Of a stretch of DNA of 64,000 nt, positions 9,080 through 29,810 are shown one piece after another. This stretch comes from Aggregatimonas sangjinii. Its GTDB lineage: Bacteria > Bacteroidota > Bacteroidia > Flavobacteriales > Flavobacteriaceae. Where the stretch lies: positions 3,951,501 to 4,015,500 of the forward strand of contig NZ_CP040710.1 in assembly GCF_005943945.1 (NCBI RefSeq). Direction: 5' to 3'. The notes below the pieces were generated by a model. It saw only the letters and a program-made list of their open reading frames with translations, was not told the origin of the DNA and did no database searches. How positions within the stretch are numbered: position 1 is the stretch's first letter; each line of letters begins with the position of its first letter. Both the position numbers and the translations under genes were made by a program.

Positions 9080-9228
9080 GCGTAGTTTTGTTGTTAAATG
9101 TATTAAAAAAGGACGATATTGCACTTCATAAAACGAATTGATATCACCGATAGAATTACGCTTAATCCAATCGATATAGAGAACTAATATGGGGAGTGCT
9201 TTAAAAATCGACTACTGTGCCAACTGAT

Positions 9229-10760: not shown

Positions 10761-10786
10761 TCAGATATAGCACCAAAAGAACGAAA

Positions 10787-11872: not shown

Positions 11873-12056
11873 ACACACCTTTTGAAAAAAGAGCCACATC
11901 TTTACCGAAAAATCTCCTTAAAATACCGAAAGTACATTTTAGTAGTGCGGATTTTTTTGTAAATACCCATTCTGCAAATCCGATTAGGTAGCATTCTTTC
12001 CAAAACAATGCCGTTAATCGATAACCTACCTTGTTTACTCTACGAACGGCAACTTC

Positions 12057-12071
12057 ACAATTTTAAATTGT
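12057..12071. promoter_or_regulatory. AT-rich dyad upstream of the SDR epimerase gene
   Basis: ACAATTT and AAATTGT flank a single T, a perfect 7-bp dyad 56 bases before the epimerase start. It lies in a 254-base gap that separates two gene groups on the same strand and could be an operator, or part of a promoter for the second group. No recognisable -7/-33 pair is seen. Confidence 0.25.
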
Positions 12072-12126
12072 TCTGTAATTAAACTAAATTGCGCCTTCCA
12101 TTAACTAACACCATTTACCAAACCAA

Positions 12127-14450: not shown

Positions 14451-14463
14451 CAATGCATTGAAG

Positions 14464-15435
14464 ATGAGCAAACCACTTTTGAGCCTTTCTTTAGACCTGG
14501 ATAATCAATGGTCTTATATGAAGATACACGGTGAGGCAGGTTGGGAAAAATTCCCTTCCTATCTTGATATATTCGTGCCTCATATTCTAAAGGTTCTAGA
14601 TGAATTGAATCTTAAAATCACCTTCTTTATTGTAGGTCAGGACGCGGCCTTTGAGCAGAATCATGCCTATCTAAGGGCTCTCGCCGATGCCGGACACGAG
14701 ATTGCCAATCATTCGTTCAAACATGAGACATGGCTTCACCTTTATTCGAAAGAAGAAATGAAGAATGAAATCGATTCGGCACATACGATTATAGAAAAAG
14801 TTACGGGAAAAACCCCTACGGGTTTTCGTGGACCCGGATTTAGTTGGAGCAGTACCCTACTCGAGGTATTATCCGAAAAAGGGTATGCTTACGATGCCTC
14901 AACACTGCCTACGATAATCGGTCCATTGGCGCGTTTGTACTACTTTAGCACTTCTAGCCTTTCCAAAGAAGAGAAAGAAGACAGAAAGGAGATTTTTGGT
15001 AAATTCTCGGACGGCTTTCGTCGGTTAAAACCGTATTATTGGAAATTTACCAAACAACATAAATTACTTGAACTCCCGGTTACCACCATGCCTGTTTTTA
15101 GAATACCTTTTCACCTGAGCTACTTACTATTTATAAGTAACATCTCTATTCATTTAATGATGTTATACCTGAATATCGCCATTTTCCTGTGCAAGCTCAC
15201 TAAAACCGAACCCAGCTTTTTATTGCACCCTTTGGATTTGATCGGCGGCGATCAAATTACAAGTCTGGCATTCTTTCCGGGGATGAATATTTCCAGTGAT
15301 CGAAAAATTTTCATATTCAAAAAGGTAATGAAAAAATTAGGTAAGCACTTTACTTTAACGAATATGAACGACCATGTAACGGCCATAAAGGAAAGAACCG
15401 TTTTAACATCGATAGCAGTCCCGACCGCTTCCTAA
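14464..15435 (+). CDS. Polysaccharide deacetylase (NodB homology)
   Basis: A 323-residue carbohydrate esterase family 4-like enzyme. Motif 1 (LSLDLDNQW) supplies the catalytic and metal-binding Asp, motif 2 (NHSFKHE) the two metal His, motif 3 is GFRGPGFSWS, and LHPLDL near the C-terminus supplies the late His. Enzymes of this family remove N- or O-acetyl groups from sugars. No signal peptide is visible, so it may act on a cytoplasmic lipid- or nucleotide-linked intermediate, which fits its place beside the GT2 and GT-C genes. The ATG at 14464 is preferred to a TTG at 14458. A hydrophobic segment near residues 215-245 (LSYLLFISNISIHLMMLYL) may attach it to the membrane. Confidence 0.8.
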   Translation: MSKPLLSLSLDLDNQWSYMKIHGEAGWEKFPSYLDIFVPHILKVLDELNLKITFFIVGQDAAFEQNHAYLRALADAGHEIANHSFKHETWLHLYSKEEMKNEIDSAHTIIEKVTGKTPTGFRGPGFSWSSTLLEVLSEKGYAYDASTLPTIIGPLARLYYFSTSSLSKEEKEDRKEIFGKFSDGFRRLKPYYWKFTKQHKLLELPVTTMPVFRIPFHLSYLLFISNISIHLMMLYLNIAIFLCKLTKTEPSFLLHPLDLIGGDQITSLAFFPGMNISSDRKIFIFKKVMKKLGKHFTLTNMNDHVTAIKERTVLTSIAVPTAS

Positions 15436-15494
15436 ATAAACAGTGGAAAAGAACATTGAAGGCCACCGAATCCTATACGTAATATCGGCAAAAT

Positions 15495-15559
15495 CCGTCA
15501 GTTATCATCTAAAAGATCCTGTTCAACGGTACAGGGAGGGATTGGACGGTTTTTTTTTT
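15495..15559 (+). terminator. Candidate terminator after the deacetylase gene
   Basis: CCGTC (15495-15499) can pair with GACGG (15545-15549), enclosing a smaller CCTGT/ACAGG stem, followed by ten T residues (15550-15559). The long closing loop makes it weaker than a standard terminator, but the T-run is strong. It could partly separate the GT2 gene from the genes before it. Confidence 0.45.
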
Positions 15560-15623
15560 AAATTTATGACTATTAAAGTGCTGTGCTACGCCATAGGCCT
15601 ATTTGCTTGACCAAACAACCAAA

Positions 15624-16697
15624 ATGACGATCGTACCGAATCAGGAAAATAATGAAAAACCACTTGTCAGCGTTATTCTACCTGCTTTCAATGAAGAAAT
15701 ACTTATCGAGCGAAATATTGCCCGGTTGTATAATTATTTAAATGGCCTAGACACACTATATCGTTGGGAGGTTATACTCATCAACGACGGCAGTACGGAT
15801 AGAACGGGGCCTTTGGCCGATGCTATTGCCAAAGACTATACTAATCTTACCGTTTATCATCATAAAATCAATCGAAATTTAGGCACTGCACTTCGTACGG
15901 GATTCAATAACAGCAACGGGGACTTCGTAATCGTTATGGATATTGATTTAAGCTACGCTCCCGACCATATTGAAAAATTATTGCTTAAAATACGGCAATG
16001 CGAGGCCGATATGGTCATTGCCTCACCCTATATGAAAGGTGGCAAAAACACCGCAGTGCCCAGGATAAGGTTACTATTGAGTAAGACCATAAACTTTATG
16101 ATGCGCAAAGCGTCGAGGCTCGATATTTACACCTTTACCGGTATGGTAAGGGCCTATAAAGGCGATTTTATACGATCCCTAAATACCAAGTCCAGCACAT
16201 TCGATATCAATTCGGAAATTCTTTTAAAGGCGTATATCTTACGTGCCACGGTTACTGAAATCCCGGCACATCTCGACTGGTCTGAGCAAAAAGCAATGGG
16301 CAAGACCCGAACCTCGAGTTTGCGTATCATTACAGGTATTTTCAACGGGCTTGTCAACAGTTTTATATTTAGGCCGTATATGTTCTTTTGGCTAATCGGT
16401 ATCACTATTTTCCTGATTTCCCTCTATATTATTGTTTGGATATTCATCAACACCTATCTTGAGTACGATGCGACCGCATTATTGACCACCGGATTCGAAA
16501 ACAGATTCTCTCTAGCGGTATCTGAGGTTTTTAGGCAAAGGCCCTACTCCTTTATCGTTGGAAGCACCACGCTGATCATTTCGCTTCAATTAATGGGACA
16601 AGGGTTTATATCGCTTCAAAAAAAGCGGTACTTTGACGAACTTTTTCACCTGAATTCGGCGATTTTAAGGGAAACTAAAAAAATCAATCAGAACTGA
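15624..16697 (+). CDS. GT2 glycosyltransferase, polyprenyl-phosphate sugar synthase type, with C-terminal membrane helices
   Basis: A 357-residue enzyme. The N-terminal GT-A domain shows LVSVILPAFNEE, the nucleotide-binding INDGSTD and a DXD-like VIVMDIDLSY, the pattern of dolichol/undecaprenyl-phosphate mannosyl- or glucosyltransferases. Two hydrophobic stretches near the C-terminus (around WLIGITIFLISLYIIVWIF and SFIVGSTTLIISLQLMG) anchor it in the inner membrane. Such enzymes load a sugar from a nucleotide donor onto polyprenyl phosphate, which GT-C transferases then use outside the membrane. The next gene is a GT-C-like protein, so the two probably form a donor/acceptor pair. The ATG at 15624 is preferred to the TTG at 15603. 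Confidence 0.82.
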   Translation: MTIVPNQENNEKPLVSVILPAFNEEILIERNIARLYNYLNGLDTLYRWEVILINDGSTDRTGPLADAIAKDYTNLTVYHHKINRNLGTALRTGFNNSNGDFVIVMDIDLSYAPDHIEKLLLKIRQCEADMVIASPYMKGGKNTAVPRIRLLLSKTINFMMRKASRLDIYTFTGMVRAYKGDFIRSLNTKSSTFDINSEILLKAYILRATVTEIPAHLDWSEQKAMGKTRTSSLRIITGIFNGLVNSFIFRPYMFFWLIGITIFLISLYIIVWIFINTYLEYDATALLTTGFENRFSLAVSEVFRQRPYSFIVGSTTLIISLQLMGQGFISLQKKRYFDELFHLNSAILRETKKINQN

Positions 16698-16749
16698 TAG
16701 TTCACAAACAAACCTCTTAAAAAATTGCCCTACAACTAGACTAGCCCGA

Positions 16750-18069
16750 ATGACAAAGCATACGTTCCCCAAAGAAGCATTACTATACCTGCCCTTGCTT
16801 TTGATATATATCATTATCGTCTTGGTCTTTTCTTCAGATATCCTGATGGGGGATGAAAGCCGGCACTTCAACTACGCTCTGAACCTGACCAATGGGTATT
16901 ATGTTGAGGCTGAGAATCCGAATTTCAGGAATGGACCCGGTTACCCTTTGGTTTTGGCTCCTTTTATCGCTGTCGGCTGCTCATTGCTTACTTTGAAGTT
17001 TTTAAATATCGCTTTTGTTGCCATGGCGGTATTTTATTTTAAAAAAACCATTGATTTATTTGCAGAGGGGAAATTCGCGCTTATCGCTGTATACATGATT
17101 GGGCTGTATCCTCCCGTGCTACGGTGGTTACCCTTTTTGTATTCCGAACCGATGGCCTACTTTTTAATGTGTGGTCTGATTTTTTACGTTTGTCAAATTT
17201 ATAGGCAAAAAGTAATTCGCCTAAAACAACTTTGTACCGCCTCGATATTTCTTGGGCTTCTGATACTTACTAAAATCATATACCTACAAGTGATTATGGT
17301 AAGTGCGCTCTGTCTGATTTTGCTCTTACTGTGGAAAAAAAACAGGACGCCCATACGAGCTTTGCTGATTTTAGCGGGAAGCTTTCTTATATTGCTTCCT
17401 TATTTAGTTTATGCCTATACCATAACCGGTAAGTTATTTTATGTTGGTAGCGGCGGCGGTGAAATTCTGTACCATCGCTCCACCCCGTACCCAAATGAAT
17501 GGGGCAATTGGTTTTCAAAAGAGGATGTTTTGTTTGGAGGGGATACTGATTACACGCCTACTACCCCCTATAAAAATTTAAACGAGTTATCTAAAAATCA
17601 CAAGGAGTTTTACCTCACCTTAGAACCCTTGTCGTATATCGAAAGAGATAGTGTTTTTAAAGCCGCAGCTATTGCGAACATGAAGGCACATCCTAAAAAA
17701 TATCTAAAGAATACAGTGGCAAGTCTGAGCAGACTTGTTTTTCATTTTCCATTTTCTTATAGGAATCAGAGCCTGAATGCTTATGGGTATATGATACCCA
17801 ATGTGCTTATTCTCTTTTTATGGGTCCTAAGTATCTACCCATTTTTGAGGAACAGAAAAAAATCCTGCTTCGAAATAAATGCACTTCTGCTGTTCAGTCT
17901 TATTTATACCGGTGGAATTGTTCTCTTAGATGGCCGAGGGCGGAATTTTATTACCGTAGTGCCTGCATTAGTGTTATTCTTTACATTCGTTTATTCAAAC
18001 TTTTTGAACATTAAATTGACCGCGTTAAGAGAAAATAGTACAAAACAATCTTTAAGTGATTTGCACTAA
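16750..18069 (+). CDS. Multi-pass membrane protein, GT-C glycosyltransferase-like
   Basis: A 439-residue protein with about ten hydrophobic segments. The first external loop contains GDESRHFNYA, matching the acidic DE motif found after the first helix of GT-C enzymes such as PMT and ArnT, and a large loop near residues 230-310 resembles their periplasmic region. GT-C enzymes move a sugar from polyprenyl phosphate to a lipid, glycan or protein on the outer side of the membrane. It follows the GT2 gene by 52 bases. It ends the plus-strand half of the locus; the acetyltransferase stop on the other strand is only nine bases away. The acceptor is unknown. Confidence 0.68.
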   Translation: MTKHTFPKEALLYLPLLLIYIIIVLVFSSDILMGDESRHFNYALNLTNGYYVEAENPNFRNGPGYPLVLAPFIAVGCSLLTLKFLNIAFVAMAVFYFKKTIDLFAEGKFALIAVYMIGLYPPVLRWLPFLYSEPMAYFLMCGLIFYVCQIYRQKVIRLKQLCTASIFLGLLILTKIIYLQVIMVSALCLILLLLWKKNRTPIRALLILAGSFLILLPYLVYAYTITGKLFYVGSGGGEILYHRSTPYPNEWGNWFSKEDVLFGGDTDYTPTTPYKNLNELSKNHKEFYLTLEPLSYIERDSVFKAAAIANMKAHPKKYLKNTVASLSRLVFHFPFSYRNQSLNAYGYMIPNVLILFLWVLSIYPFLRNRKKSCFEINALLLFSLIYTGGIVLLDGRGRNFITVVPALVLFFTFVYSNFLNIKLTALRENSTKQSLSDLH

Positions 18070-18078
18070 GTTTGTGCG

Positions 18079-18705
18079 CTATGAGGGGCCACTATATTTA
18101 TGAAGTAAAGTTTCTACGGCCTTAACTCTTTGTGCGTAGACCTCCCCGTCCCTATCATACCATGCCGATGTTTTCTTCTTTATGGTCGCAGGCGAACCCG
18201 TTAGTAGTACGTTGGACGCTTCAAATGACTTGTTCACCATAGAATTAGAACCAATGGAAATGTTCTCGCCCAGTGTTAGCTCGGCACCCATAATTTGAGC
18301 TCCGGACGCCAAGTAGAGGCCATGTCCTATAACTTTCCCAGATCCACCGATGCAGGTTGAGGTGTGCAATACGCAGTAATTGCCCGCTTTTGTATCTGAA
18401 TTGATTACAATGGTACCATAGTGTGGGATAAGTAAGCCATAACCGAAACTATTCGGGTCTATACTGAAACCTAATCTTATACCTAATCTAGTATAGGCTC
18501 TTTGGTAATAATAATAATTTAGGCTTCCTTTTTTTTTTGTGTTTTTATAATAGGCAACCTTGCGCATAGCCTTTAAGTAATTGAGGATATGGTCTGGGTT
18601 GAGCAGGTTGCGAAGCCGTTCCTTAAAACGAATTCTTTCCGTTTTACCCGCCATTAACCTATCTGCCGCAATATAAAAACGAAGCTCTTTTTTGGTTAAA
18701 ATCAT
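18079..18705 (-). CDS. Hexapeptide-repeat acetyltransferase, serine acetyltransferase-like
   Basis: A 208-residue protein with a helical N-terminus and a C-terminal left-handed beta-helix (about residues 85-185: GTIVINSDTKAGNYCVLH, IGHGLYLASGAQIMG, LGENISIGSNSMVN). Database labels for such proteins are often serine acetyltransferase, but in EPS loci they O-acetylate sugars, as colanic-acid WcaB/WcaF proteins do. The final VLLTGSPATIKKKTSAW is the typical end of the helix. It is the last gene of the minus-strand half of the locus, 162 bases after the PKD-lyase gene. O-acetylation of the EPS or its precursor is inferred from position; a role in cysteine synthesis is less likely here. Confidence 0.75.
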   Translation of the reverse strand: MILTKKELRFYIAADRLMAGKTERIRFKERLRNLLNPDHILNYLKAMRKVAYYKNTKKKGSLNYYYYQRAYTRLGIRLGFSIDPNSFGYGLLIPHYGTIVINSDTKAGNYCVLHTSTCIGGSGKVIGHGLYLASGAQIMGAELTLGENISIGSNSMVNKSFEASNVLLTGSPATIKKKTSAWYDRDGEVYAQRVKAVETLLHKYSGPS

Positions 18706-18867: not shown

Positions 18868-21800
18868 TCAATCCGGTTCTACCAGCGAATACGCATCTTT
18901 GCCATAGTCCGAATCACCCGGTCTTCTGGTCACCATTCTGAGAGTGCCCAGATATGTTTCAATAAAAGACACACCTTGTTCCCTAGATTCTATTATAGCT
19001 TCTTCGTTTTCCCATTTCCATTTGTAGATTCCCCATTTTGCATTACCACCGTAGGGCGCTTCGGTTTGCACATTTCTCATTTGCGTATCGTGTACTTTTA
19101 CATCGTCGATCCACATACGAAGTTTGCCTGTATTATTGTCTCCCCAGACCACATGAACGACTATCTTTAATTTTTGTCCCGCCCTTGGATAAACTCCGGT
19201 AGGATGGTATTGGTTGGATATGCTGGTATCAGCGGAATTGACCAGTGAAATCTCTCCTGCATTGAATTGTCCCTCCTCGCTATTGACCCATAACGCAAGA
19301 AGTGGTTTGGTACCTACAATACCATTGTGAAACTGAAACATTATAAAGGGGTGGATTGGATCAACCTTGTAGTTCGAACCAAATTCATATGTCCAGCCCA
19401 ACCATTCTTCCGTGCCTACCGGGTGCTGTACCCGAAATGGCCAAGTAGTTATTTCGGCTCGATAATTGAAATCTTTTTCGCACCAACTTTCAGCAATGGG
19501 ATTGACCGGATCAACCCTAAATTTTAGTCGGTCCCCTTCTACTGTAACCTGCCTTTCGTAACAGTGCGTATCTGTTTTCATTTGGCCATCGCTAAATAGA
19601 ACGCCTTTTCTTTCGGAATACTCTGGAATGGTATGAGAACTCCAGCACCAGATTTTCTTACCGCTTTCATTTGAAAAACCTCCTCCAGTACTACAGTCGA
19701 TATTGCCCCTTGGCGCTTCAGCAACATTGATGGTAAGTAGCTCGGTATCGCTTAGTCCTTCATTGTCAAAGACCGTAAGGCTAACGTCATAGATTCCTGG
19801 GTTTTCAAAGGTATAAGTAGTATTGGCGTTTGACGATGTGCTCTCGGAGAAATCCCAGACATAGCTCGCAATGCCCTTATCGTCGGACGAATCGCTGCCC
19901 GTAAAACTAACTGTCAAAGGTGCATTTCCACTTAACGTGTTCGCATTGGCCACTGCGTCGGGCGCCGCATTTTCAACTTCGGTTGCCGTAATCGACACTG
20001 TATCTTCACTAGTTAAGCCATCCGCATCCGTAACGATTAAGGTTATCTCGTAAGTGCCGGCCGCCGCGAATGTATGCTCGGGATTTTCGGTGGTCGCCGT
20101 ATTCCCATCCTTAAAATCCCAGAGATAGGAGGTGATGCCATTATCATCGGTTGAATTATTTCCCGTAAAGCTGACTTGTAGAGGAACCGTACCGGAGAGG
20201 GTATTGGCACTTGCCCTTGCTACTGGTGCCGCATTAGCGTTGCTAACGGTAATCGATAGTTCCTCGGTTGCGGATAGTCCTTCGGCATCGGTAACGGTCA
20301 AGGCCACTTCATAGGTGCCCGCAGCTACAAAAGTATGTTCGGCGTTTGCGGTCGTTGCCGTATTCCCGTCCCTAAAATCCCAGAGATAGGAAGTGATGCC
20401 ATTATCATCGCTTGAACTATTTCCAGAAAAGCTGACCTGCAAAGGAGCAGTACCGGATAAGGTACTTGCGCTTGCGGTGGCCATCGGGGCCGTATTCGGG
20501 TTGGTAACTACAACTGAAATCGCCGCGGTCGCGGTTAGACCCTCTGCGTCGGTCACCTCTAAAACTACTTCATAAGTACCGGCCTCGGTAAACGTATTTT
20601 CAGGGTTTGCGGTCGTTGCCGTATTCCCGTCCTTAAAATCCCATGCATAGGATACGACTTCCTTATCATCGGAGGATTCACTGCCGATAAAATTTACTTT
20701 GAAAGGTACTGCTCCTGATACCGAACTGGCACTTGCCCGGGCCACTGGCTCCTCATTGGGGGCAGTCACAGTAATGGTGAGCGTCTGTGTTGCAGAGAGG
20801 TCATCCGCATCGGTCACCTTCAAAACTACATCATAAATACCCGCTTCTGTAAACGTATTCTTGGCATTGGCCGTTGAAGCTGTATTGCCATCCTTAAAAT
20901 CCCATGTATGCGATATAATTCCATTGTCGTCGGAAGATTCGCTTCCCGTAAAAGCTACTTCTAAGGGCGCGATACCGGAAAGTACACCGGCACTGGCCTT
21001 TGCAACCGGCGCCTGATTGACCCCTGTTACAACAATCGGTAGTATTTGCGATGCGGAGAGACCATCGGCATCGGTTACCGTAAAAACTACCTCAAAAGTA
21101 CCGGCTCCGGCAAAGGTATTCTCGGCGTTCGCGGTCGTGGCGGTATTGCCGTCCTTGAAATCCCATAAATAGGAAGTAATCCCGGTATCGTCTGAAGACC
21201 CTTCCCCTGAAAAAACTATTTTTAAGGGCGCGGTACCCGTGGTTACGCTAGCACTTGCCTCGGCCAAAGGCGCCTCGTTGGGAGCGGTGACGGTAATGGA
21301 AACTGCTGCTGCATTGGACATACCTTCTTCATCGGTAACCGTAAGGGCGACCTCATAGGTGCCTGGCGTTGTGAACGTATGTTCGGCATTCGCCGTCGTC
21401 GCAGAACTTCCATCCTTAAAATCCCAAGAATAACTGGATATACCTTTGTCGTCAGTAGAACTACTGCCTATAAAATTTACCGTTAGAGGCGCAACTCCAC
21501 TGGTTTCGGAGGCGCTTAAAACCGCTACTGGTGCAGCATTTGTAGTCTCGGAATTTTCGGGGTCTTCTTCCTCCGTAGTCTCCTCTTCGGTTGTATCTTC
21601 CTCGGACTCTTCGATGACGGGGTCTTCGATTACGGGGTCTTCGATTACGATAAGGTCAGCGGTGACCGGCGCCTGATATGCAACGACCAATTCGCTACCG
21701 GCAACGGTTTCATTTTCCTTGGAAGCGAAAGCAAAAGCTTCACCATCTTCGAGCTTTAATATTAATGTTGCAACTTCAGGAAACAGGTTTGCCTCATCCA

Positions 21801-22350
21801 AACCGATGGTTATTTGTTCCTCAATGTCATATACTTGTTGCGTGACACCCAATAAGGTATCTGCTTCGGGCGCGGTAGTTTCGGAAAGGGTATCTTCCGT
21901 CCATTGGTTCGAACTTCCTTTGAAAACCTCGATTTTACCACTACCGTTGTCTTGGTCGACTATAAAACGTAGACTAGCACTTGTAATATAGCCCTCTATG
22001 GAATCGATTTCACTTAAATCGAACATGAGGTAACTTGTTCTGCTATCTTCCGCTAAGCGAACAAGTTCTCGATCAAAGCCTTGACCATCTTGAATATAGG
22101 CATCATGAATAGGTCGGAAAGCGGTGGTCCTACTTTCCATTTCGACCATCCCGAAATCACTATCCTCAATTTCAGGTGGTTCTTCCGAGGCCCCATCTCC
22201 ACCCACAGAAGTAGAATCGTTGGGTTGTTCGCTTGTGGGCTCGGGCTCCTTTACCACATATTCACTAAGCACACCCTCGTCTAAACTGCAGGAAAGTAGT
22301 ATAAGAAAGGCTATAAAACCATATAGCAGTATGGTAAATCGTAATTTCAT
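18868..22350 (-). CDS. Surface lipoprotein: DNRLRE/CBM96-like module, seven PKD domains, C-terminal polysaccharide-lyase-like domain
   Basis: A 1160-residue protein, counted from the ATG at 22350; a longer frame to 22392 would place 14 residues before the lipoprotein signal. The signal ends in LSC, giving a lipid-anchored Cys. Then come an acidic spacer, a DNRLRE/CBM96-like beta domain (about 71-226; SYLMFDLSEIDSIEGYI), a Glu/Asp-rich linker, seven PKD domains of about 87 residues (about 271-879) and a lyase-like jelly roll (about 883-1160). The last domain shows WCW, RAEI, GTEEWLGW, FQFH and NAKWGIYKWKW, the pattern of the Polysacc_lyase family that holds heparin lyase I and glucuronan lyase. 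Two paralogues of this domain lie directly upstream. I infer cleavage of a uronic-acid polymer at the cell surface, possibly the EPS made by this locus. Confidence 0.82.
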   Translation of the reverse strand: MKLRFTILLYGFIAFLILLSCSLDEGVLSEYVVKEPEPTSEQPNDSTSVGGDGASEEPPEIEDSDFGMVEMESRTTAFRPIHDAYIQDGQGFDRELVRLAEDSRTSYLMFDLSEIDSIEGYITSASLRFIVDQDNGSGKIEVFKGSSNQWTEDTLSETTAPEADTLLGVTQQVYDIEEQITIGLDEANLFPEVATLILKLEDGEAFAFASKENETVAGSELVVAYQAPVTADLIVIEDPVIEDPVIEESEEDTTEEETTEEEDPENSETTNAAPVAVLSASETSGVAPLTVNFIGSSSTDDKGISSYSWDFKDGSSATTANAEHTFTTPGTYEVALTVTDEEGMSNAAAVSITVTAPNEAPLAEASASVTTGTAPLKIVFSGEGSSDDTGITSYLWDFKDGNTATTANAENTFAGAGTFEVVFTVTDADGLSASQILPIVVTGVNQAPVAKASAGVLSGIAPLEVAFTGSESSDDNGIISHTWDFKDGNTASTANAKNTFTEAGIYDVVLKVTDADDLSATQTLTITVTAPNEEPVARASASSVSGAVPFKVNFIGSESSDDKEVVSYAWDFKDGNTATTANPENTFTEAGTYEVVLEVTDAEGLTATAAISVVVTNPNTAPMATASASTLSGTAPLQVSFSGNSSSDDNGITSYLWDFRDGNTATTANAEHTFVAAGTYEVALTVTDAEGLSATEELSITVSNANAAPVARASANTLSGTVPLQVSFTGNNSTDDNGITSYLWDFKDGNTATTENPEHTFAAAGTYEITLIVTDADGLTSEDTVSITATEVENAAPDAVANANTLSGNAPLTVSFTGSDSSDDKGIASYVWDFSESTSSNANTTYTFENPGIYDVSLTVFDNEGLSDTELLTINVAEAPRGNIDCSTGGGFSNESGKKIWCWSSHTIPEYSERKGVLFSDGQMKTDTHCYERQVTVEGDRLKFRVDPVNPIAESWCEKDFNYRAEITTWPFRVQHPVGTEEWLGWTYEFGSNYKVDPIHPFIMFQFHNGIVGTKPLLALWVNSEEGQFNAGEISLVNSADTSISNQYHPTGVYPRAGQKLKIVVHVVWGDNNTGKLRMWIDDVKVHDTQMRNVQTEAPYGGNAKWGIYKWKWENEEAIIESREQGVSFIETYLGTLRMVTRRPGDSDYGKDAYSLVEPD
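19714..21540 (-). repeat. Seven tandem PKD-domain repeats (about 261 bp each)
   Basis: Seven consecutive units of 87-89 residues start with N-x-x-P and share SDD, SYxWDF, a DGN-like loop and TYEVxLTVTDxxGL. Units 1-6 are in exact 87- or 88-residue register and close in sequence; unit 7 is the most diverged, with an altered loop (SESTSSNAN). PKD domains act as stiff spacers or bind glycans; here they would hold the lyase domain away from the membrane. Confidence 0.9.
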
Positions 22351-22816
22351 TGGATGGCTATGTAGGGCAGGTGAAAATTTTAAAAAACCCACAAAAGAAG
22401 TACGAGCAAAATTAAGAAATAGCCGACAAAAGACACAAATAATCGATGAAATACCTTTTTTCCTAAATTTTACATCGATTTTGGGGTAAATAAGGGAGTT
22501 AATCCAACCGTACTATTGTCCTGAATTACGGCTTAAGGTTCGAAAAACCAGTTTGACCGGTTATCAGTAAAATGTAAAAAGCTTTATGATAATATGGCTA
22601 TATCATCAGGAAAGGTGCATTGAAATTCCAAAACAAGCAGCCTTTCAGGCGTTTAAGCCTACACTTTCATTATCGGACGAAAATGTGATTGGTGTATTTC
22701 TACATATAACTTGAAATAGTTCGCGGCCCCAATTCACTATTTATGAAAATTTTAAAACTAACCCATGCTTAGCACCTCAACCCTAATGCTATCTTAGATA
22801 GAATAGGCCCAATTCT
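22351..22816. other. Intergenic region between two lyase-like genes
   Basis: This 466-base gap separates the stop of the 335-residue lyase-like gene from the start of the PKD-lyase gene, both on the minus strand. I see no coding sequence or clear terminator. A 6-bp dyad (CTATCT/AGATAG, 22789-22801) lies just after the upstream gene's stop but lacks a T-run. The size suggests that the PKD-lyase gene has its own promoter, though I could not place a TAnnTTTG element. Confidence 0.4.
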
Positions 22817-23824
22817 TCAATCCGGTTCTACGAGGGTATATGCATTTGCTCCATATTGCGAGTCGCTGGGTTTCCTAGTAACTATTCGCAATGTCCCCAT
22901 GTACGTCTCTAACACGGAAATACCCTGTTCCTGTGAATCTACAACACTACTTTCATTTGCCCATTTCCATTTATAGATTCCCCATTTTGCATTGCCTCCG
23001 TATGGGGCACTCGCTTGAATGGTTCTTGACTGTACGTCGTGCACTTTTACATCATCAATCCAGATTTGCACTAGACCGTTAGTATCATCTCCCCAAACCA
23101 CATGAGCTACAATTTTAAGTTTTTGACCGGCTATCGGATAAACACCCGTGGGATAGTATTGATTCGAACTAGAACTGTTCGCAGCATTGACCAGAGTAAT
23201 CTCCCCTGTATTGAATTGTCCATCGCCACTGGTTACCCAAAGTGAAATCAAGGGCTTCTCGCCTACGAGACCATTATGGCATTGAAACATTATCCATGGG
23301 GTTCTAGCATCTGCTATGTAAGCAGGCCCAAATTCATAGGTCCATCCGAACCACTCCTCAGTTCCTTGAGGATGCTGTATTCGAAAAGGTGCGGTACTAA
23401 CCTCCGCTCGCATATTATAACTTCTCCCACACCAACTCTCCGGAGTTGGTGTGGTCGGATTTACGGTAAATTTCAATCGGTCACCAGCTATACTCACCTG
23501 TTTTTCGTAGCATTCCGAATTGGTCTTGAGCTCATCATTACTGAATAAAACACCTTTGGCTTCAGTATATTCGGGAATTGTAATCGTATCCCAACACCAG
23601 ATTTTGGCTTTGGCTTCATCCGCTTTTCCTCCACCAGAACCACAATCGATGTTCCCGACTTCCGCAACGGGAGGTTTTTCTTCCCCTACTTGCGATTTTT
23701 TTTCCGTTTCAATTTGCTCAGCAGCGATTTGTGCATCTTTACTGCAGGAAAGAACCATTATAAGAGAGATGCCTATTAAACATAGAAGATTGATTTGCCA
23801 TCTGGCAGGTCGTAGGTCGATCAT
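22817..23824 (-). CDS. Secreted lipoprotein, polysaccharide-lyase-like (Polysacc_lyase fold)
   Basis: A 335-residue lipoprotein: the signal segment ends in LSCS, giving Cys27 as the lipid-anchored residue. A short Glu/Lys-rich linker leads to a single lyase-like domain (about 57-335). It shares with the PKD-lyase the order WCW, Cys pairs, RAEV, GTEEWFGWTYEF, FQCH, VVWGD and NAKWGIYKWKW, and the C-terminal LVEPD. The Gln-x-His and Gly-Ile-Tyr-Lys positions are candidates for the catalytic residues by analogy with heparin lyase I. The catalytic domains of the two proteins are alike along their whole length, suggesting a duplication in place. It probably acts on the same uronate-containing polymer. 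Confidence 0.82.
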   Translation of the reverse strand: MIDLRPARWQINLLCLIGISLIMVLSCSKDAQIAAEQIETEKKSQVGEEKPPVAEVGNIDCGSGGGKADEAKAKIWCWDTITIPEYTEAKGVLFSNDELKTNSECYEKQVSIAGDRLKFTVNPTTPTPESWCGRSYNMRAEVSTAPFRIQHPQGTEEWFGWTYEFGPAYIADARTPWIMFQCHNGLVGEKPLISLWVTSGDGQFNTGEITLVNAANSSSSNQYYPTGVYPIAGQKLKIVAHVVWGDDTNGLVQIWIDDVKVHDVQSRTIQASAPYGGNAKWGIYKWKWANESSVVDSQEQGISVLETYMGTLRIVTRKPSDSQYGANAYTLVEPD

Positions 23825-24012
23825 AAGCTGACTATTGAATTTGGGACTTCAATTTTAATCGGCAACTAATTATGCCACCGTCTTAAAATGAAGAGTGGGA
23901 ATACTACCACTGATTAAGACACATGATACCGCATACATTTCAACATGTTACCAGGATAGCGACTTTTTACATGTTGGTAAAACAGTCTTAAAAAAACAGT
24001 AAAAAAATGATT

Positions 24013-24981
24013 TTATTGTGGCATTACGGTAGAATAAGCGTTTTTACCGTATGCGGGATGGTCGGGTGTTCTTGTAATCATACGCAAAGGTCCCATTGAA
24101 GTTTGAAGCTTGGTAACCCCTTTTTGCCGGGATTTTTTCACGTCATCGGCGTTGGCCCATCGCCATTTGTAGATACCCCATTTTGCATTACCACCCCAAG
24201 GATACTTGTCAAAGACAGTAGCGACTTGTCGATCATAGACCGAAACACCGTTCAACCAAATCTGAAGCAGGCCGTTCGCCGCATCGTCCCATACGGCATG
24301 AATAACAATATTTAGGGTTTCGCCTGCCTCGGGAATAATTCCGGTAGGTTGGTATTCCGTATTGTTTGCTGTATTGACCACATAGATTTCCCCTGCCTCA
24401 TGACCATTGAACTGATTTTTTTTTATGACCCAAAGTGCCATTTGTGGAGCTACATTTTGTATGCCGGGATGTACCTGAAAGAATAGCCAAGGGGTCTCTT
24501 TATCTATGATATAGTCGCTTCCGAACGTATAGCTCCAACCAAACCACTCTTCAGTCCCTTTTTTGTGATTTACATGCCAAGGGACGGTCCTTATCTCGGC
24601 GCGCATATTAAAATTCTTAGCACACCATTTTCCTGGTGGTGGGCTTGAGGGATCAAGACTGAATACCAACTGACCATTTACGATTGTAACTTGTCTTTCG
24701 TCGCATTCCGAATCAACTTTTAATTGTCCGTCACTAAATGCTACCCCCTGTTGCCCCGTATATTCAGGTATGTTGACATCACTCCAACACCAAACCTTCA
24801 ATCCACTATCGTTTGCAAGGCCACCAGAGGTTCTGCAGCCAACACTGTCTACGATTCCAGAAGTATACGCAATTTCCCCGTGGGGAAGAGGTGTACCTAC
24901 AACCCCATAGATCAGTACTATTAAGAGCATACTTAAAATAATGCCAATACTATTTTTAGCAATGGATTTTGGTAGCTTCAT
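24013..24981 (-). CDS. Secreted polysaccharide-lyase-like protein (third paralogue)
   Basis: A 322-residue protein from the ATG at 24981 (MKLPKSIAKN); an in-frame start at 25005 is also possible. The N-terminus has one long hydrophobic stretch (SIGIILSMLLIVLIYGVVG) without a lipobox, so it is either cleaved or membrane-anchored. The single domain has the same landmarks as its neighbours: WCW, RAEI, GTEEWFGWSY, FQVH and NAKWGIYKWRW, ending in TVMPQ. It is the most diverged of the three. It follows the last GT4 gene by only 37 bases, so it is probably co-transcribed with the polymer-assembly genes. That coupling is the best evidence that these lyases belong to the EPS machinery. Confidence 0.8.
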   Translation of the reverse strand: MKLPKSIAKNSIGIILSMLLIVLIYGVVGTPLPHGEIAYTSGIVDSVGCRTSGGLANDSGLKVWCWSDVNIPEYTGQQGVAFSDGQLKVDSECDERQVTIVNGQLVFSLDPSSPPPGKWCAKNFNMRAEIRTVPWHVNHKKGTEEWFGWSYTFGSDYIIDKETPWLFFQVHPGIQNVAPQMALWVIKKNQFNGHEAGEIYVVNTANNTEYQPTGIIPEAGETLNIVIHAVWDDAANGLLQIWLNGVSVYDRQVATVFDKYPWGGNAKWGIYKWRWANADDVKKSRQKGVTKLQTSMGPLRMITRTPDHPAYGKNAYSTVMPQ

Positions 24982-25018
24982 TTTGACAAATTGTACCGAA
25001 AGCATCGGGAAGCGCTAC

Positions 25019-26128
25019 TTAGAGGCGGTCATAGAGAGATTTATATTCTAGTATAATTTTATCCCAAGTATAGTGGGCGAAAACTTTATCTCTTGCCAGT
25101 CCTCCTAATCTTTCGAATTCCTTTTTATTATTTTCAAGCCAAATTAGCTTGTCAGCCAAATCACGAACATTCTTATTTTCAAAAAACAGCATTTCTTTAT
25201 CGCAGAATACCTGCTTATTCTCAGGAATGTCACTTGCTAATACTGCTTTTCCGGTGCTTGCCACCTCAAGTAACATTATCGACATACCTTCAATTTCAGA
25301 TGGAAATACGAAATATTCACATCTTCTGACCAACTGCAATAAGGCTGATAGCGGACTCACATATCCCAAATAACTAACATTCAATCCTTTCCCTAACTTT
25401 CGTACATTTTTCATATACGGTGGATCAAAATCAAGTTCTCCTGCAACAAAGATATTCCCCTTATAATTAATTTTCTTGTAGGCTGATAACAAGGTGTGTA
25501 ATCCTTTCGTACTCATAATCCTCCTTGCCGCAAAAAGAACGAACGGCTTATCGGACGGGACATCTTTCGGCCAAAAATTCGCGATAGCGCCATTAGACTC
25601 CTCCAAAAGATTGATACCATTAGGAATAAATACAACATTTACACCATATTTCGACTCATAGGATTCGGCAAGTGGTTTTGATATCGCCGTTTTCACACCA
25701 TTGAACCTAAGAAAACGCTTTTCGTTCATCTTAAAAAACGACTTGGCGATACCACCCCAAACGCCGTCTTTGTAGGGGACTCCATGAACAGTAGCGATTA
25801 CCTTTGCCTTTTTTTGAATTCCTTTTAGAAAAAAGAAGCTATCTATCTTATGAGCATGAACGATATCGTATTTCCCCTTGAACCTGATATGCATGTAACA
25901 AATAAAGTAATATAAAAACACGCCTAAGGCACCTAGTTTAATCCGTGGGAACTCAACAACCTTTACTCCCTCGATATGGTTTTGTGCCAACTTGTTTTTG
26001 TAACAATATATGGTAATATCATATTCATCGACCATGTTCAAGATCAAATTCTCGGCTACACGACTAGTACCTCCCCGAGAAGGAAAGTATTTAATTCCAA
26101 AAAAAGCAATCTTCTTTTTCTTTTTCAT
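25019..26128 (-). CDS. GT4 glycosyltransferase 1
   Basis: A 369-residue GT-B enzyme. The N-terminal acceptor half begins FFGIKYFPSRGGTSRVAENL with the Gly-rich loop of GT4 enzymes. The C-terminal nucleotide-sugar half has LFAARRIMSTKGLHTLL and the E-x7-E region in FPSEIEGMSIMLLEVAS. Such enzymes add one sugar to the lipid-linked repeat unit on the cytoplasmic face of the membrane, keeping the anomeric configuration. It is the last of four consecutive glycosyltransferase genes and lies just before the three lyase-like genes. Donor and acceptor cannot be inferred. Confidence 0.85.
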   Translation of the reverse strand: MKKKKKIAFFGIKYFPSRGGTSRVAENLILNMVDEYDITIYCYKNKLAQNHIEGVKVVEFPRIKLGALGVFLYYFICYMHIRFKGKYDIVHAHKIDSFFFLKGIQKKAKVIATVHGVPYKDGVWGGIAKSFFKMNEKRFLRFNGVKTAISKPLAESYESKYGVNVVFIPNGINLLEESNGAIANFWPKDVPSDKPFVLFAARRIMSTKGLHTLLSAYKKINYKGNIFVAGELDFDPPYMKNVRKLGKGLNVSYLGYVSPLSALLQLVRRCEYFVFPSEIEGMSIMLLEVASTGKAVLASDIPENKQVFCDKEMLFFENKNVRDLADKLIWLENNKKEFERLGGLARDKVFAHYTWDKIILEYKSLYDRL

Positions 26129-26242
26129 TCGAGTTGCTCGTCCGTTTTTCTATTCCTAAGGGCTGCATTGACCATTTTTCTCTTTTCTACACAGTCTATC
26201 CAGACTACCCTTTCACTCAATCGTTTTTAGGAACTATCTTAA

Positions 26243-27343
26243 TTAGGCTAACAGCCTTTTATACAAATTATGATATTCAGTAGTCATTTTCTCCAATCCA
26301 AACACTGACGTAATTCTGTTTTTAGCTTTAACACCCATTTGATCGGCTTCGTTTTTGCTTTCCAATAAATAATTTACTTTATCGGCTAGTGCTCTTGGTG
26401 AATCAGGAGGAATCAAAAATCCAGTCTTCATGTCTTCTACGATTTCATTCGTACCACCTCCGGTAGTGGCTACTGTAGGTTTTCCTAAGGCCATATATTC
26501 AAGTATGGCGTTCGAGATGCCTTCGCCATGAACTTTGGTATTGGTCGCCAACACCCCAATATCAAAAATATTAACAATCGATTCTATATCGTTCTGTACC
26601 CCGGTAAAAATAAAAAGCGGAGTGTACTCAGGTGGTATTAGCTTCTTGCATTTCTCAAGATTAGGCCCCTCACCAATGGCAAGAAAGGTAATATCGTTGC
26701 GCGTTTCAAATAAAATCAACGCGGCATTAATCAAGGTTTCAAAATCCTTTTTGTCGGTAAAGCTCGCCACCATACCAATTACGTATGGAGTTTTTATATG
26801 AAACCTTTTCCTAATCGCTACAGCATCTTTGAGATTGGACAACCTTTCGACTCCAAACCCGTTATAAATACACACTGCTTTCTCCTTCGGAACTTTATAG
26901 GCCTTTAAGCCAGCCCAAGAATTTCCTAAAATAACTTCCGAAAATGGAAAGGTAAGCCTGGCCCTAAAATATTGTTTATTGAAAAAACCCATATTAATCG
27001 GGGCATTTACAATATTCGCATTAATAAGTTTTACACGAAGTAACACCGATGAAGGTATCGCCCAGATAGTAGACATGGTGCCCCAACTGTGCATTAAGTC
27101 GGGTTTCCAATTGCGACAAAATTCAAAAAGTCTATAGAATACAACCGGATTTTTCTTTGGTACTCGTTTTAATATTTTAACGGGAATACCAAAGTCGAAT
27201 ATCTCGGTATAATGAATTTTATCCGAAAAAACCACCACGGCAAGCTCAACATCCTCAAAATCGCTGAAACCCTTGACCAACTCAACCAGTCTCCTCTCCC
27301 TCCCTCCCGAGGTAAGGCTTTCGATAAGCAAGAGTATCTTCAT
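26243..27343 (-). CDS. GT4 glycosyltransferase 2
   Basis: A 366-residue GT-B enzyme from the ATG at 27343; a TTG three codons earlier is less likely. The N-terminal loop reads LIESLTSGGRERRLVELVKG, and the donor half contains GMVASFTDKKDFETLI, FTGVQNDIESIVN and the acidic GEGISNAILEYMALGKPTVA motif. It resembles EPS glycosyltransferases that add neutral or amino sugars to undecaprenyl-diphosphate-linked glycans. A 114-base gap follows before the next glycosyltransferase gene, without a visible terminator. Sugar specificity is unknown. Confidence 0.85.
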   Translation of the reverse strand: MKILLLIESLTSGGRERRLVELVKGFSDFEDVELAVVVFSDKIHYTEIFDFGIPVKILKRVPKKNPVVFYRLFEFCRNWKPDLMHSWGTMSTIWAIPSSVLLRVKLINANIVNAPINMGFFNKQYFRARLTFPFSEVILGNSWAGLKAYKVPKEKAVCIYNGFGVERLSNLKDAVAIRKRFHIKTPYVIGMVASFTDKKDFETLINAALILFETRNDITFLAIGEGPNLEKCKKLIPPEYTPLFIFTGVQNDIESIVNIFDIGVLATNTKVHGEGISNAILEYMALGKPTVATTGGGTNEIVEDMKTGFLIPPDSPRALADKVNYLLESKNEADQMGVKAKNRITSVFGLEKMTTEYHNLYKRLLA

Positions 27344-27446
27344 TTTATTCAATAAGTCTTTATCAGATTAATTTTTTCGGATAAGGAATCAGGATTGCCA
27401 AAAGGCTTTTTGGAATTTCAACTTTTGCAACTGTAGAGAGACTTGA

Positions 27447-28580
27447 CTAAGATACGTTCGTTTCGCCATAGTGGACTTCGCCGTTACGTGTTTGTATTGA
27501 ACTACTATTCTCAATCAACTTCAAGTATTTCTTTTGAAACGTTGCAAAGCTAAAATTTTTGGCAAGATGTGTATGACTGGCGTTACCCATCTGTATTCGT
27601 AGTTCTGGAGATTGAATCAGTTTTTTTAAAAAATTCGCCAAAGCAATTGCATCGTGAATTGGCGTGATAAAACCATTTTTTTGATGAAGTACTAAACGGG
27701 CGTTATCCCCAGCATCAGTAGCCACCAAAGGCAGGGCACAATTCATAGCCTCCATAATGGCATTGGAAACTCCCTCAAAAGACGAAGTACACAAGTATAC
27801 ATCGGAATCATCAAGCATTCCGTATATGTCCGAGGCATCGGTTACAACCTTAACTTGATTTTCAAGTTCACGGGCTTTTATGTCGGTCATAATCTTCTCC
27901 TTTTCGGGCCCTTGACCCACAATGGTGTAGGTGAAGCTATACCCCTCATCTAATATTCCCTTAAGATGGGCAATGCACTTTAGGGCGGTAGCATATTCTT
28001 TTTGGGGAACCAGCCTTCCTAAACTAATTATGTGAACCGGTCCTACCCCTACGTGCTTTCGCTCAACGTATGGCCTGATGTCGATACCATTGGAAATTAC
28101 AAACACCTTTTTCTTAAAACCAAAATCGATAGCGGAACGATAAGCGGCAAAGTTGTTGGCTATGGTATAGTTCAATAAATAATTGTTCACCAACTTTAAA
28201 GCGATAAATTTAGCGTTGGCCATATAACTGTTTCTAATACCCCCGAAAACAAGCGGAACTCCTGCCAACTTGCCACAGATGGAGGAGAGCAAAGTGTCAG
28301 TAGGCAGAAAAGAAAAAATAATATCTATTTGTTGCCGTTTTAAAAAGCGCATCAACCCGAAAGGTCTTTTAAGCGGGTTCTTTGCCAAATACACATGATT
28401 TAGTTGCTCTTCTTCTATAAATGTAAGTCGAGGCCTGTAGAGAGGACCCGGATTTAGAATAACAACTGTTACGGAGTGATAAGGACTTAAGGCCTTCGCC
28501 AATAAAAGGCACTGTTTTTCAGCACCTCCGGGACCGAGGGAATTGATTGTAATACAGATTTTCTTTCGTTTCTTGCTCAT
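27447..28580 (-). CDS. GT4 glycosyltransferase 3
   Basis: A 377-residue GT-B enzyme. It starts with ITINSLGPGGAEKQCLLLAK, the classic GGAE acceptor loop of WbpY/PimA-like GT4 enzymes. The donor half has ISLGRLVPQKEYATAL, a GQGPEK loop, and SSFEGVSNAIMEAMNCALPLVAT with the paired glutamates. The gene lies 18 bases after the stop of the glycosyltransferase gene upstream, so they share a transcript. One linkage of the repeat unit is probably its job. The C-terminal tail (QTRNGEVHYGETNVS) is longer than the fold needs and of unknown use. Confidence 0.86.
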   Translation of the reverse strand: MSKKRKKICITINSLGPGGAEKQCLLLAKALSPYHSVTVVILNPGPLYRPRLTFIEEEQLNHVYLAKNPLKRPFGLMRFLKRQQIDIIFSFLPTDTLLSSICGKLAGVPLVFGGIRNSYMANAKFIALKLVNNYLLNYTIANNFAAYRSAIDFGFKKKVFVISNGIDIRPYVERKHVGVGPVHIISLGRLVPQKEYATALKCIAHLKGILDEGYSFTYTIVGQGPEKEKIMTDIKARELENQVKVVTDASDIYGMLDDSDVYLCTSSFEGVSNAIMEAMNCALPLVATDAGDNARLVLHQKNGFITPIHDAIALANFLKKLIQSPELRIQMGNASHTHLAKNFSFATFQKKYLKLIENSSSIQTRNGEVHYGETNVS

Positions 28581-28598
28581 TCCCTAAATCTCGTTGAT

Positions 28599-29810
28599 TT
28601 ATTGCTGTCGTGATAAGTTCTTGGTAAAAGTCAATAATTTTTGGCCGAGTACTTTGTAATCGAACTCGGCAAGGCCAAGACGGTAGCCGTTTTTTCCTAT
28701 TTCCTTAGCCTTTTCGGGATTTTCCAAAACAAATTTCATTTTTTCAGCAAAGTTCCCAACCTCATAGTCACTGGCCACCAATGCCGTCTTACCGTCTTCG
28801 AAATAGGTCTGTATCTCCCCAAAGTTGGTCGTAACGACCGGATTTCCCGATGCGAGGTATTCCCCGATCTTGTGCGGAAACCTCGAGGCATCTTGTACGG
28901 TATCCCGCAATGGTATCAACAAAGCGATCGCATTGGTATACAATTGAACAAGTTGTTCGTATGGAATATTCGAATAGAGTTTAATGGGCTGCGTCTTAAA
29001 ACGCGTATTGATTTCGTCCTGAAAACGAGCAGTCTCTTCTCGACTCTCCCCGCTTACGATCATATACAATTTCGCATTCTCATCATCTGAGATACTACTA
29101 TAGGCGTCGATGATGAAATCGATTACCTCGCGATACGAAATGCTACCACAGTACAAAAAGTATTCTTCCGATGGGGTTTTCTGAACGTCGAATATATCAA
29201 AATCACAGATTACCGGGATTTTTAAACAGGGCTTATTTGGTGAAGTACCATGATAATAATTTTTAAGTTTATCACTTATGGGCAATGCACCATCAAATAA
29301 CCTAATGACCCATTTTTCATTTATATAATCATTTATCCGCTTTAGGAAACCATTGCGATGTTGCATTGAAGAAGCCATTTCGACAAAATTCAATACAATC
29401 GGAAAATCGAAATAAGCGGCAAATAACAAGTACCTCAAAACATGTAAGATCTTTCTGTTCGAAAGTATCGCCATCGTAATCGGTTGTTGTTTTTTAAGAT
29501 TCCTTAGGTATGTAAATTCCCCATAAACTCCTCGTATTTTTTGAATGTTTCTCTTTACGAAGCCCTTTGGCTTGTGCACAGCTTTTGAGGTATAGATATA
29601 GTCTATCCCTTCAAAATTACCCCTGTAATTGAAATTTGGATGTTCGCCGACGTTCCAAGAGCCTTTCCTGCAGATAATAGTCGTCTTGACATTTTCATGT
29701 AGCAACGATTTCGCCATAAGGGTCATGCGTTGTACTGAAGCCAGACCGTAAGGAAATCTTGCTTCCCCTAAGAAAACAACATGTTTATCGCTATTCGTAT
29801 TTATCTTCAA
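28599..29810 (-). CDS. GT4-like glycosyltransferase 4
   Basis: A 403-residue GT-B enzyme, more diverged than its three neighbours. The N-terminal half opens VFLGEARFPYGLASVQRM, and the donor half reads YFLYCGSISYREVIDF, VSGESREE and ALLIPLRDTVQDASRFPHK with IGEYLASGNPVVTTNFGE, which matches the donor-binding region of GT4 enzymes. The usual first Glu of the E-x7-E motif is not obvious; the second lies in IGEYLAS. Membrane attachment through the N-terminal half is likely but not visible as a helix. It is the first of the four glycosyltransferase genes after the flippase. Confidence 0.78.
   Translation of the reverse strand: MKINTNSDKHVVFLGEARFPYGLASVQRMTLMAKSLLHENVKTTIICRKGSWNVGEHPNFNYRGNFEGIDYIYTSKAVHKPKGFVKRNIQKIRGVYGEFTYLRNLKKQQPITMAILSNRKILHVLRYLLFAAYFDFPIVLNFVEMASSMQHRNGFLKRINDYINEKWVIRLFDGALPISDKLKNYYHGTSPNKPCLKIPVICDFDIFDVQKTPSEEYFLYCGSISYREVIDFIIDAYSSISDDENAKLYMIVSGESREETARFQDEINTRFKTQPIKLYSNIPYEQLVQLYTNAIALLIPLRDTVQDASRFPHKIGEYLASGNPVVTTNFGEIQTYFEDGKTALVASDYEVGNFAEKMKFVLENPEKAKEIGKNGYRLGLAEFDYKVLGQKLLTFTKNLSRQQ

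Follow-up and report, generated by a model that had tools for sequence, protein, structure and literature searches.

The genome of Aggregatimonas sangjinii, a member of the Flavobacteriaceae, carries within a stretch of 64,000 nucleotides (contig NZ_CP040710.1, positions 3,951,501 to 4,015,500; hereafter the window, whose numbering is used throughout) a gene cluster for exopolysaccharide (EPS) synthesis that includes three putative polysaccharide lyases, PL1, PL2 and PL3. These are adjacent minus-strand genes with one common domain of about 280 amino acids, and their relation to the polymer made by the same cluster is considered here. Read from 37700 downwards, the EPS operon comprises a glycosylphosphotransferase, Wza, Wzc, Wzy, Wzx, four GT4 glycosyltransferases, PL1 to PL3 and an acetyltransferase-like gene, and it converges with a plus-strand operon running from WbpD through a membrane glycosyltransferase-like gene (9217-18069); operon status was deduced from gene order and spacing. 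The features are the following.

24013-25005, minus strand: PL1, lyase with an N-terminal membrane anchor or uncleaved signal, without lipobox cysteine (PF14099, 48.1 bits); lyase domain at 24016-24858, minus strand
22817-23824, minus strand: PL2, short lipoprotein-like lyase (signal ending in SCSKD, lipobox-like cysteine; PF14099, 55.4 bits); lyase domain at 22820-23665, minus strand
18868-22392, minus strand: PL3, long lipoprotein-like lyase with lipobox, CBM96, seven PKD and a C-terminal lyase domain (PF14099, 60.3 bits); lyase domain at 18871-19713, minus strand
22350, minus strand: alternative ATG start of PL3
21682-22125, minus strand: CBM96 domain of PL3 (PF24517, E 5e-10, 39.9 bits; coordinates computed by hand from residue numbers)
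25019-29810, minus strand: four GT4-type glycosyltransferases (GT4a from 25019, GT4b from 26243, GT4c from 27447, GT4d from 28599; Pfam Glycos_transf_1)
29886-31247, minus strand: Wzx-like flippase (Polysacc_synt, PF01943)
31288-32655, minus strand: Wzy-like polymerase (Wzy_C, PF04932)
32727-35120, minus strand: Wzc export protein (Wzz/GNVR/AAA_31)
35292-36116, minus strand: Wza export protein (Poly_export/SLBB)
36300-37700, minus strand: initiating polyprenyl glycosylphosphotransferase, EPS_sugtrans (PF02397; TIGR03025 above cut-off)
18079-18705, minus strand: hexapeptide-type acetyltransferase-like protein downstream of PL3 (NCBIfam CysE/EpsC below cut-off; no Pfam match)
12127-18069, plus strand: convergent partner operon with SDR epimerase/decarboxylase-like protein, FAD oxidoreductase, polysaccharide deacetylase, GT2 and membrane glycosyltransferase-like protein (by Pfam; the last has no family match and is named by comparison)
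9217-11872, plus strand: WbpD/WbpB/WecB-type trio (WbpD and WbpB by PDB match, the third by the wecB model)

All three lyases score above the gathering cut-off (29.9 bits) of Pfam family PF14099 (Polysacc_lyase), well outside what chance would give and in agreement with a preliminary description of this DNA, made from its letters alone, which had proposed this fold. The five motifs named there (WCW, RAE[IV], GTEEW[LF]GW, Q-x-H and AKWGIYKW) are found in PL1, PL2 and PL3 alike, and the domains are 47-65% identical (65% between PL2 and PL3, 47-49% between PL1 and the two others). Its gap of 37 bases between the last glycosyltransferase and the first lyase is likewise correct when counted to the glycosyltransferase stop (25019) from an in-frame ATG at 24981, 8 codons inside the PL1 open reading frame. 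No fourth PF14099 match (E 0.001) was found in the 4.72-Mb single-contig genome, and all three copies are therefore at this locus.

Regarding localization, the N-termini of the three proteins, read by a simple script rather than a trained predictor, appear to be of the export type. Each has a hydrophobic stretch, which in PL1 is not followed by a cysteine and which in PL2 and PL3 precedes a lipobox-like cysteine and then SKD (PL2) or SLDE (PL3); the seven PKD stretches of PL3 match Pfam PKD_4. Eight clusters, the window's included, hold one lyase copy without lipobox cysteine, and among the clusters of relatives every copy of at least 400 residues with a visible N-terminus carries one. In other Bacteroidota, surface export is directed by an acidic signal following the lipobox cysteine, and PL2 and PL3 probably reach the surface by such a signal.

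Fold and candidate active site

The AlphaFold models of PL2 and PL1 (mean predicted local distance difference test 89.5 and 89.6) have the same top match in the PDB, the glucuronan lyase of Trichoderma reesei (2zzj; E 2.0e-11 for PL2 and 4.3e-11 for PL1, template modelling score 0.52/0.60, root mean square deviation 6.7 and 7.4, 15-16% identity), which we take to belong to family PL20. Alginate lyases of several families come next, followed lower down by ulvan lyase, and heparin lyase I (3ilr) matches the PL2 model at E 1.3e-7 and is absent among the best 50 matches of PL1. In a profile search of PDB sequences, 2zzj was the sole credible match (E 1e-6 over 145 positions), and up to E 10 it was accompanied by one chance match and by no solved heparin lyase I. 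In the CAZy comparison proposed in the preliminary description, PL20 is at most a candidate family, and neither PL13 nor PL7 is supported. Heparin lyase I (PL13), presumably itself a PF14099 member, resembles the proteins in a Lys-x3-Tyr spacing and in the structural match to the PL2 model, but has no PDB sequence match. The alginate lyases of PL7, PL18 and PL36 share the jelly-roll and the order R-x-E, Q-x-H, K-x-G-x-Y, but the PL7 profile PF08787 has no match in PL1-PL3 at E 0.001, and an hhalign comparison of the lyases with the PL7 domains of 20 relatives was not significant (probability 0.5%), only the R-x-E stretch being aligned.

Seven residues (N84, R86, E88, Q128, H188, K227 and Y231, in PL2-domain numbering) are invariant in 37 of 37 lyase domains from 17 genomes or metagenome-assembled genomes (MAGs), and H130 is kept in 36, so that all eight motif positions are intact in 36 of the 37. 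As the domains were picked by a motif script, a bias toward conservation is possible; in 13 genomes, the script and a profile search (E <1e-80) gave the same count of 28. Fragments of genome G220, a decayed copy of G319 and a cut-off third copy of Zobellia barbeyronii were left out (G, L and C numbers are our handles for genomes, loci and contigs). In the sole lyase of G262 (L058:16465-17310), a tyrosine replaces the motif histidine at the H130 position.

In the alignment with 2zzj, Y231 falls opposite Tyr200 (residue number counted by hand). This closest solved fold is fungal, and its aligned stretch shows no Q-x-H histidine. The motifs Q-x-H and K-x-G-x-Y are the catalytic motifs of PL7, and PDB entry titles name H191N/Y284F mutants of the A1-II' alginate lyase. 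K227 and Y231 have the spacing of Lys358 and Tyr362, given as the Lys-x3-Tyr pair of Bacteroides xylanisolvens heparinase I in passages of PMC10097318. An attempt to place the catalytic positions by sequence comparison failed, the PL7 alignment not being significant and 2zzj being the lone credible PDB match. Because these searches gave no more, the assignment draws on motif order, the fold match and the Tyr200 alignment; the eight positions are thus putative catalytic ones, judged from motif order, this one alignment and the motifs of related lyases.

The Foldseek lists of both models also contain lectins, glucanases and other glycoside hydrolases with a jelly-roll fold, so that the fold alone is no proof of catalysis, and that lectins share the modelled fold is a point against an enzymatic role. 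PL1-PL3 might instead be non-catalytic matrix lectins, binding the polymer through their jelly-roll domains and anchoring it at the cell while cutting it little or not at all, a role that lipoprotein anchors, CBM96 and PKD stalks would fit. Moreover, Cip1, a fold neighbour, appears without convincing lyase activity in passages of PMC3764139, and lectin-like autoagglutination is described for WceF, a hydrolase of an EPS cluster, in PMC7949094. We nevertheless consider lectins unlikely, since the conservation of eight motif positions in 36 of 37 copies goes beyond the need of binding alone. Another kind of modification, by a transglycosylase-like step or by coupling of the polymer to an anchor on the surface, could make use of differently anchored tandem copies to link chains to the surface, and the glucanases and other hydrolases of this fold speak in its favour. 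It seems very improbable to us, as the motif set is presumably that of lyases and no transferase in PF14099 is known to us.

Conservation and covariation with the polymer genes

Across 397 genomes of the family, the lyase profile (E 0.001) has matches in 17, of which 13 are strong, one consists of fragments (G220, where two of three lie at contig ends) and three are weak (G111, G264 and G287). Orthologs of the cluster deacetylase (14458-15435; E 1e-80) occur in 14 of the 397, which are exactly the 13 strong-lyase genomes and G220, and GT4a orthologs (E 1e-80) in 11, all inside the 14. Identical lyase and deacetylase sets would arise by random drawing with a chance of 4.6e-26; as the genes are physically linked and the genomes related, they show a conserved unit, not a function. 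The 14 genomes span ten genera, and Pricia antarctica, Zobellia amurskyensis, Z. barbeyronii and an uncultured Flavobacteriaceae MAG are named carriers (G319 is taken to be Pricia). In the window's own genus, only G007 among 9 other genomes matched in a single-sequence search, and members without the cluster exist.

The gene-neighbourhood survey found a similar lyase-bearing EPS layout in 16 other clusters as far as their contigs reach (those of G335, G220, G007 and two Zobellia records are incomplete), with order changes and extra genes. The lyase gene is kept inside the EPS synthesis cluster of relatives, as expected of a built-in EPS depolymerase. The FAD, deacetylase, GT2 and membrane glycosyltransferase-like genes are present in every one of the 15 other clusters that extend far enough to include them; five of these 15 lack the SDR gene or have only a paralogue of 28% identity, and the acetyltransferase-like gene (18079-18705) has orthologs (60-64%) in 4 of the 16. 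In G319, a decayed third lyase copy with three stops lies between GT4a and the intact lyases (C17:385229-385708).

Alternatively, these proteins could be catabolic lyases for algal or other foreign acidic glycans that lie beside an EPS operon by chance. Many relatives of this fold are catabolic, heparin lyase I (PL13) among them, some PF14099 genes lie near SusC/SusD (the second locus of G662, and G485), and the genome itself holds five PL7 matches. These PL7 genes lie elsewhere, and four of them have a SusC/SusD pair (identified by Pfam as Plug/TonB-receptor and SusD_RagB) no more than ~7 kb away, as is typical of a catabolic locus. At the PF14099 locus, by contrast, SusC/SusD, the mark of a polysaccharide utilization locus, is not among the Pfam matches of the 30 open reading frames scanned (7295-48787). 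The joint occurrence of lyases and cluster deacetylase in the same 14 of 397 genomes also argues against catabolism, as does a catalytic domain that follows the polymer cassette (below), and we judge this explanation quite unlikely.

Covariation was analysed over 12 genomes, the "GT region" being the open reading frames between Wzx and the lyases, mostly glycosyltransferases. For G409, which has no defined GT region, scoring of its pairs used the genes of the partner alone, and the alternative Wzy of G258, G412, G020 and G418 were identified from their position (in Pfam, that of G258 matches Wzy_C weakly, below cut-off, and that of G418 has no match). Lyase similarity correlates with the similarity of the GT region (r 0.81), Wzy (0.67) and Wzx (0.64), more weakly with that of Wzc (0.52), the initiating transferase (0.38), FAD enzyme (0.30), membrane glycosyltransferase (0.27) and Wza (0.26), and does not track GT2 (0.10) or the deacetylase (0.05). 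In a partial Mantel test (2000 permutations) that controls for Wzc, the GT region keeps a correlation of 0.73 (p 0.0005). The result holds without the near-copy G412 (GT region 0.70, p 0.006; Wzy 0.70, p 0.0015), and with G418 also removed p is 0.03 for the GT region and 0.02 for Wzy. Among eight long lyases, stalk similarity goes with that of Wza (0.91), Wzc (0.84) and the deacetylase (0.83). Similarity of the catalytic domain goes with that of the GT region (0.89; when the stalk is controlled for, 0.85 with p 0.003, or 0.76 with p 0.016 without G412) and, under the same control, with that of Wzy (0.58, p 0.0015).

Much of this signal can be followed in G418. This genome shares its probable genus with G267 and G010, its flanking genes being 86-97% and its SDR gene 88-91% identical to theirs, except for one flanking gene with 94% identity to G010 and just 27% to G267; a flanking gene is also 95-97% identical to Z. 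amurskyensis and other genomes of a genus denoted g2, which is probably Zobellia. Its Wzx, Wzy, glycosyltransferases and membrane glycosyltransferase, however, are 47-87% identical to those of G020, from another genus, whereas in its own genus they have a match of no more than 61% or none; Wzx and Wzy resemble those of G258 as much or more. The FAD gene likewise sides with G020 (78% versus 61-62% in its own genus), and the deacetylase and GT2 show no clear shift. The lyases have moved in the same direction: the domain of the long lyase is 72% identical to G020 versus 41-47% to four genomes of its own genus, the short lyase 65% versus 36-41%, and in the lyase tree the four domains of G020 and G418 group together as a single, fully supported deep clade. 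The stalk of the long lyase shows no comparable change (49% to G020, 53-54% in its own genus, over 239-260 residues; 46% and 48-49% in a second alignment).

The lyase-bearing cluster is thus kept in relatives and the cutting domain changes with the coat-building genes, and for these reasons we favour, with a probability of about three in four, the reading that PL1-PL3 are exported lyases which would cut the acidic EPS of their own Wzx/Wzy cluster. The preliminary description had made the same proposal, which is now backed by fold, motif residues, predicted export N-termini, conservation in ten genera and covariation; its tie to a diacetamido-uronic acid, discussed below, was not supported.

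Several observations weigh against this reading. When G412, G418 and G020 are all dropped, the covariation is lost (GT region p 0.25; Wzy given Wzc r 0.35, p 0.26), although Wzy given the deacetylase still has p 0.023; the covariation, which supports a role of the lyases on the polymer of their own cluster, therefore reflects mainly one exchange. Genes that are linked tend to travel together, so that hitch-hiking may explain the covariation. The catalytic domain also correlates with Wzc (0.75, or 0.57 with p 0.02 once the stalk is controlled for) and, with G412 removed and under the same control, with the deacetylase (0.38, p 0.04). In G418, the long lyase is divided between two contig ends, and its stalk and catalytic part are presumed to be one gene. 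The window's cluster is without a uronate-forming dehydrogenase: neither a nucleotide-sugar 6-dehydrogenase (WbpA-type) nor an aminotransferase (WbpE-type) is among the Pfam matches of the 30 open reading frames scanned, and three full-length dehydrogenase candidates lie elsewhere in the genome, outside the window. Finally, PF14099 occurs in 11 of 282 Bacteroidota genomes, EPS-linked in four (G537, G682, the window's genome and G010), near SusC/SusD in two and with neither in five; the markers were hidden Markov models built from few seeds and applied within ~10 kb, and one contig (G689) measures 6.7 kb, so that "neither" may hide misses.

A general rule that PF14099 genes are always EPS-linked was rejected on this sample (4 of 11). 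The distant PF14099 relatives whose surroundings were examined, located by profile searches in G287, G264, G537, G682 and G111 (loci L121, L123, L124-L127 and L122/L129), are situated within or next to EPS-type genes. In G682, four tandem PF14099 copies stand beside a sugar-phosphate transferase, which alone makes its EPS link, and one further copy is without such a neighbour.

The polymer and other features of the window

The preliminary description had named a WbpD/WbpB/2-epimerase set in the locus and tied the lyases to the diacetamido-uronic acid that it would make. The names are sound (best PDB matches 2e-61 for WbpD and 6e-109 for WbpB; non-hydrolysing UDP-GlcNAc 2-epimerase by the wecB model), the genes belonging to the convergent plus-strand operon. 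The tie is not supported as a general one. WbpB lies beside the lyase cluster in two of 11 genomes checked, the window's and G319, where the WbpD-WbpB-WbpI trio (L140:12938-15589, 66-74% identity) occupies the opposite cluster end. In the 9 relatives, WbpB was found in 7 and never beside the lyases (more than 200 kb off in four, on another contig in three), and a whole-genome search (E 1e-40) did not find it in two that keep the lyases; in G007, G335, G409, G220 and the two Zobellia records, WbpB was examined within the fetched stretches only. Lyases in general thus do not depend on this sugar, and the link is at best possible in two genomes.

A nucleotide-sugar dehydrogenase lies inside 2 of the 16 other clusters (G020 and G418), APS kinase in 3 (G258, G412 and G220; CysD/CysN-type genes also in one) and MBOAT acyltransferases in 5. 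A sulfotransferase-family gene was observed inside the EPS cluster in 5 of the 16 relatives (L065:8264-9286 and the clusters of G262, G258, G412 and G220), the four others being 34-67% identical to that of G319 (Pfam was run on G319 and G220); the window's genome has one Sulfotransfer_3 match, far from the cluster. This differing content of sulfotransferase, APS kinase, MBOAT and dehydrogenase genes indicates that the polymers vary; they are probably acidic and, in certain strains, probably sulfated as well. The deacetylase and GT2 (14458-16697, plus strand), with 60-85% and 48-79% identity to their counterparts in relatives, are reminiscent of lipid-linked sugar steps of the ArnD/ArnC type, the ArnD likeness being weak, and perhaps add a side branch in the periplasm.

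Regarding regulatory features, Rfam and tRNA scans gave no matches, and promoter-like (18 versus 13.6 expected from shuffles) and terminator-like sites (8 versus 7.4) show no clear excess in the lyase region. A site at 22407-22439 (minus strand), 57 bases upstream of the PL3 ATG, matches the Bacteroidota-type promoter consensus; with 2 matches in the window versus 2.3 by chance, it is a weak candidate.

Proposed function, known systems and significance

If PL1-PL3 are lyases of their own EPS, they would act by beta-elimination next to a uronic acid, with Tyr231 and His130 serving as acid/base, Arg86 and Gln128 binding the carboxylate and Lys227 in an assisting role. PL1, at the inner membrane and facing the periplasm, would trim or clear chains during Wzy-dependent assembly, and the lipoproteins PL2 and PL3, probably at the cell surface, would edit or release the finished coat, PL3 reaching outward on its CBM96/PKD stalk. 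We tentatively go further, with slightly less than even confidence: a membrane-anchored lyase and at least one lipoprotein lyase at the surface, all from a single clade, would form a polymer-matched, multi-compartment set for EPS editing that is fixed in this family of Wzx/Wzy clusters from marine flavobacteria. Its catalytic domains would be exchangeable modules that travel with the glycosyltransferases and the polymerase, the anchoring stalk being retained by the host, and lyase sequence would predict polymer type.

Enzymes inside their own EPS synthesis cluster are familiar from the alginate lyase AlgL. According to passages of PMC11637428, RbmB of Vibrio cholerae is a lyase encoded in a matrix gene cluster that acts on its own matrix polysaccharide; it differs in its predicted parallel beta-helix and in its polymer, and tandem copies are not mentioned in these passages. 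WceF of Pantoea stewartii likewise cuts the EPS of its own cluster, but as a hydrolase with a tailspike-like beta-helix (PMC7949094). Closer in taxonomy, in the same bacterial family, Maribacter dokdonensis 62-1 has a PL12 enzyme in an EPS cluster, for which a link between synthesis and degradation was suggested by the authors; this enzyme is of another lyase family, without predicted signal peptide and unique to one of the strains compared (passages of PMC8072126). The novelty claimed in the preliminary description is therefore narrower than stated, a matrix-cluster lyase and an EPS-cluster PL12 being in print. Among the matches listed in our literature search (titles and abstract openings), we found no PF14099 clade in EPS clusters, no tandem anchoring types and no domain exchange, and what looks new is this clade, its tandem anchoring types and its matching to the polymer.

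Should this reading be correct, each such cluster would supply the enzymes that cut the polymer it makes, and the annotation of such genes as algal-polysaccharide degraders would be wrong. The lyases would offer a direct handle for solving the structure of the polymer, by digestion and fragment sequencing, and a source of enzymes for acidic and, in some relatives, probably sulfated glycans. Moreover, they would provide a way to test the trimming, release and dispersal of Wzy-made coats in algae-associated bacteria.

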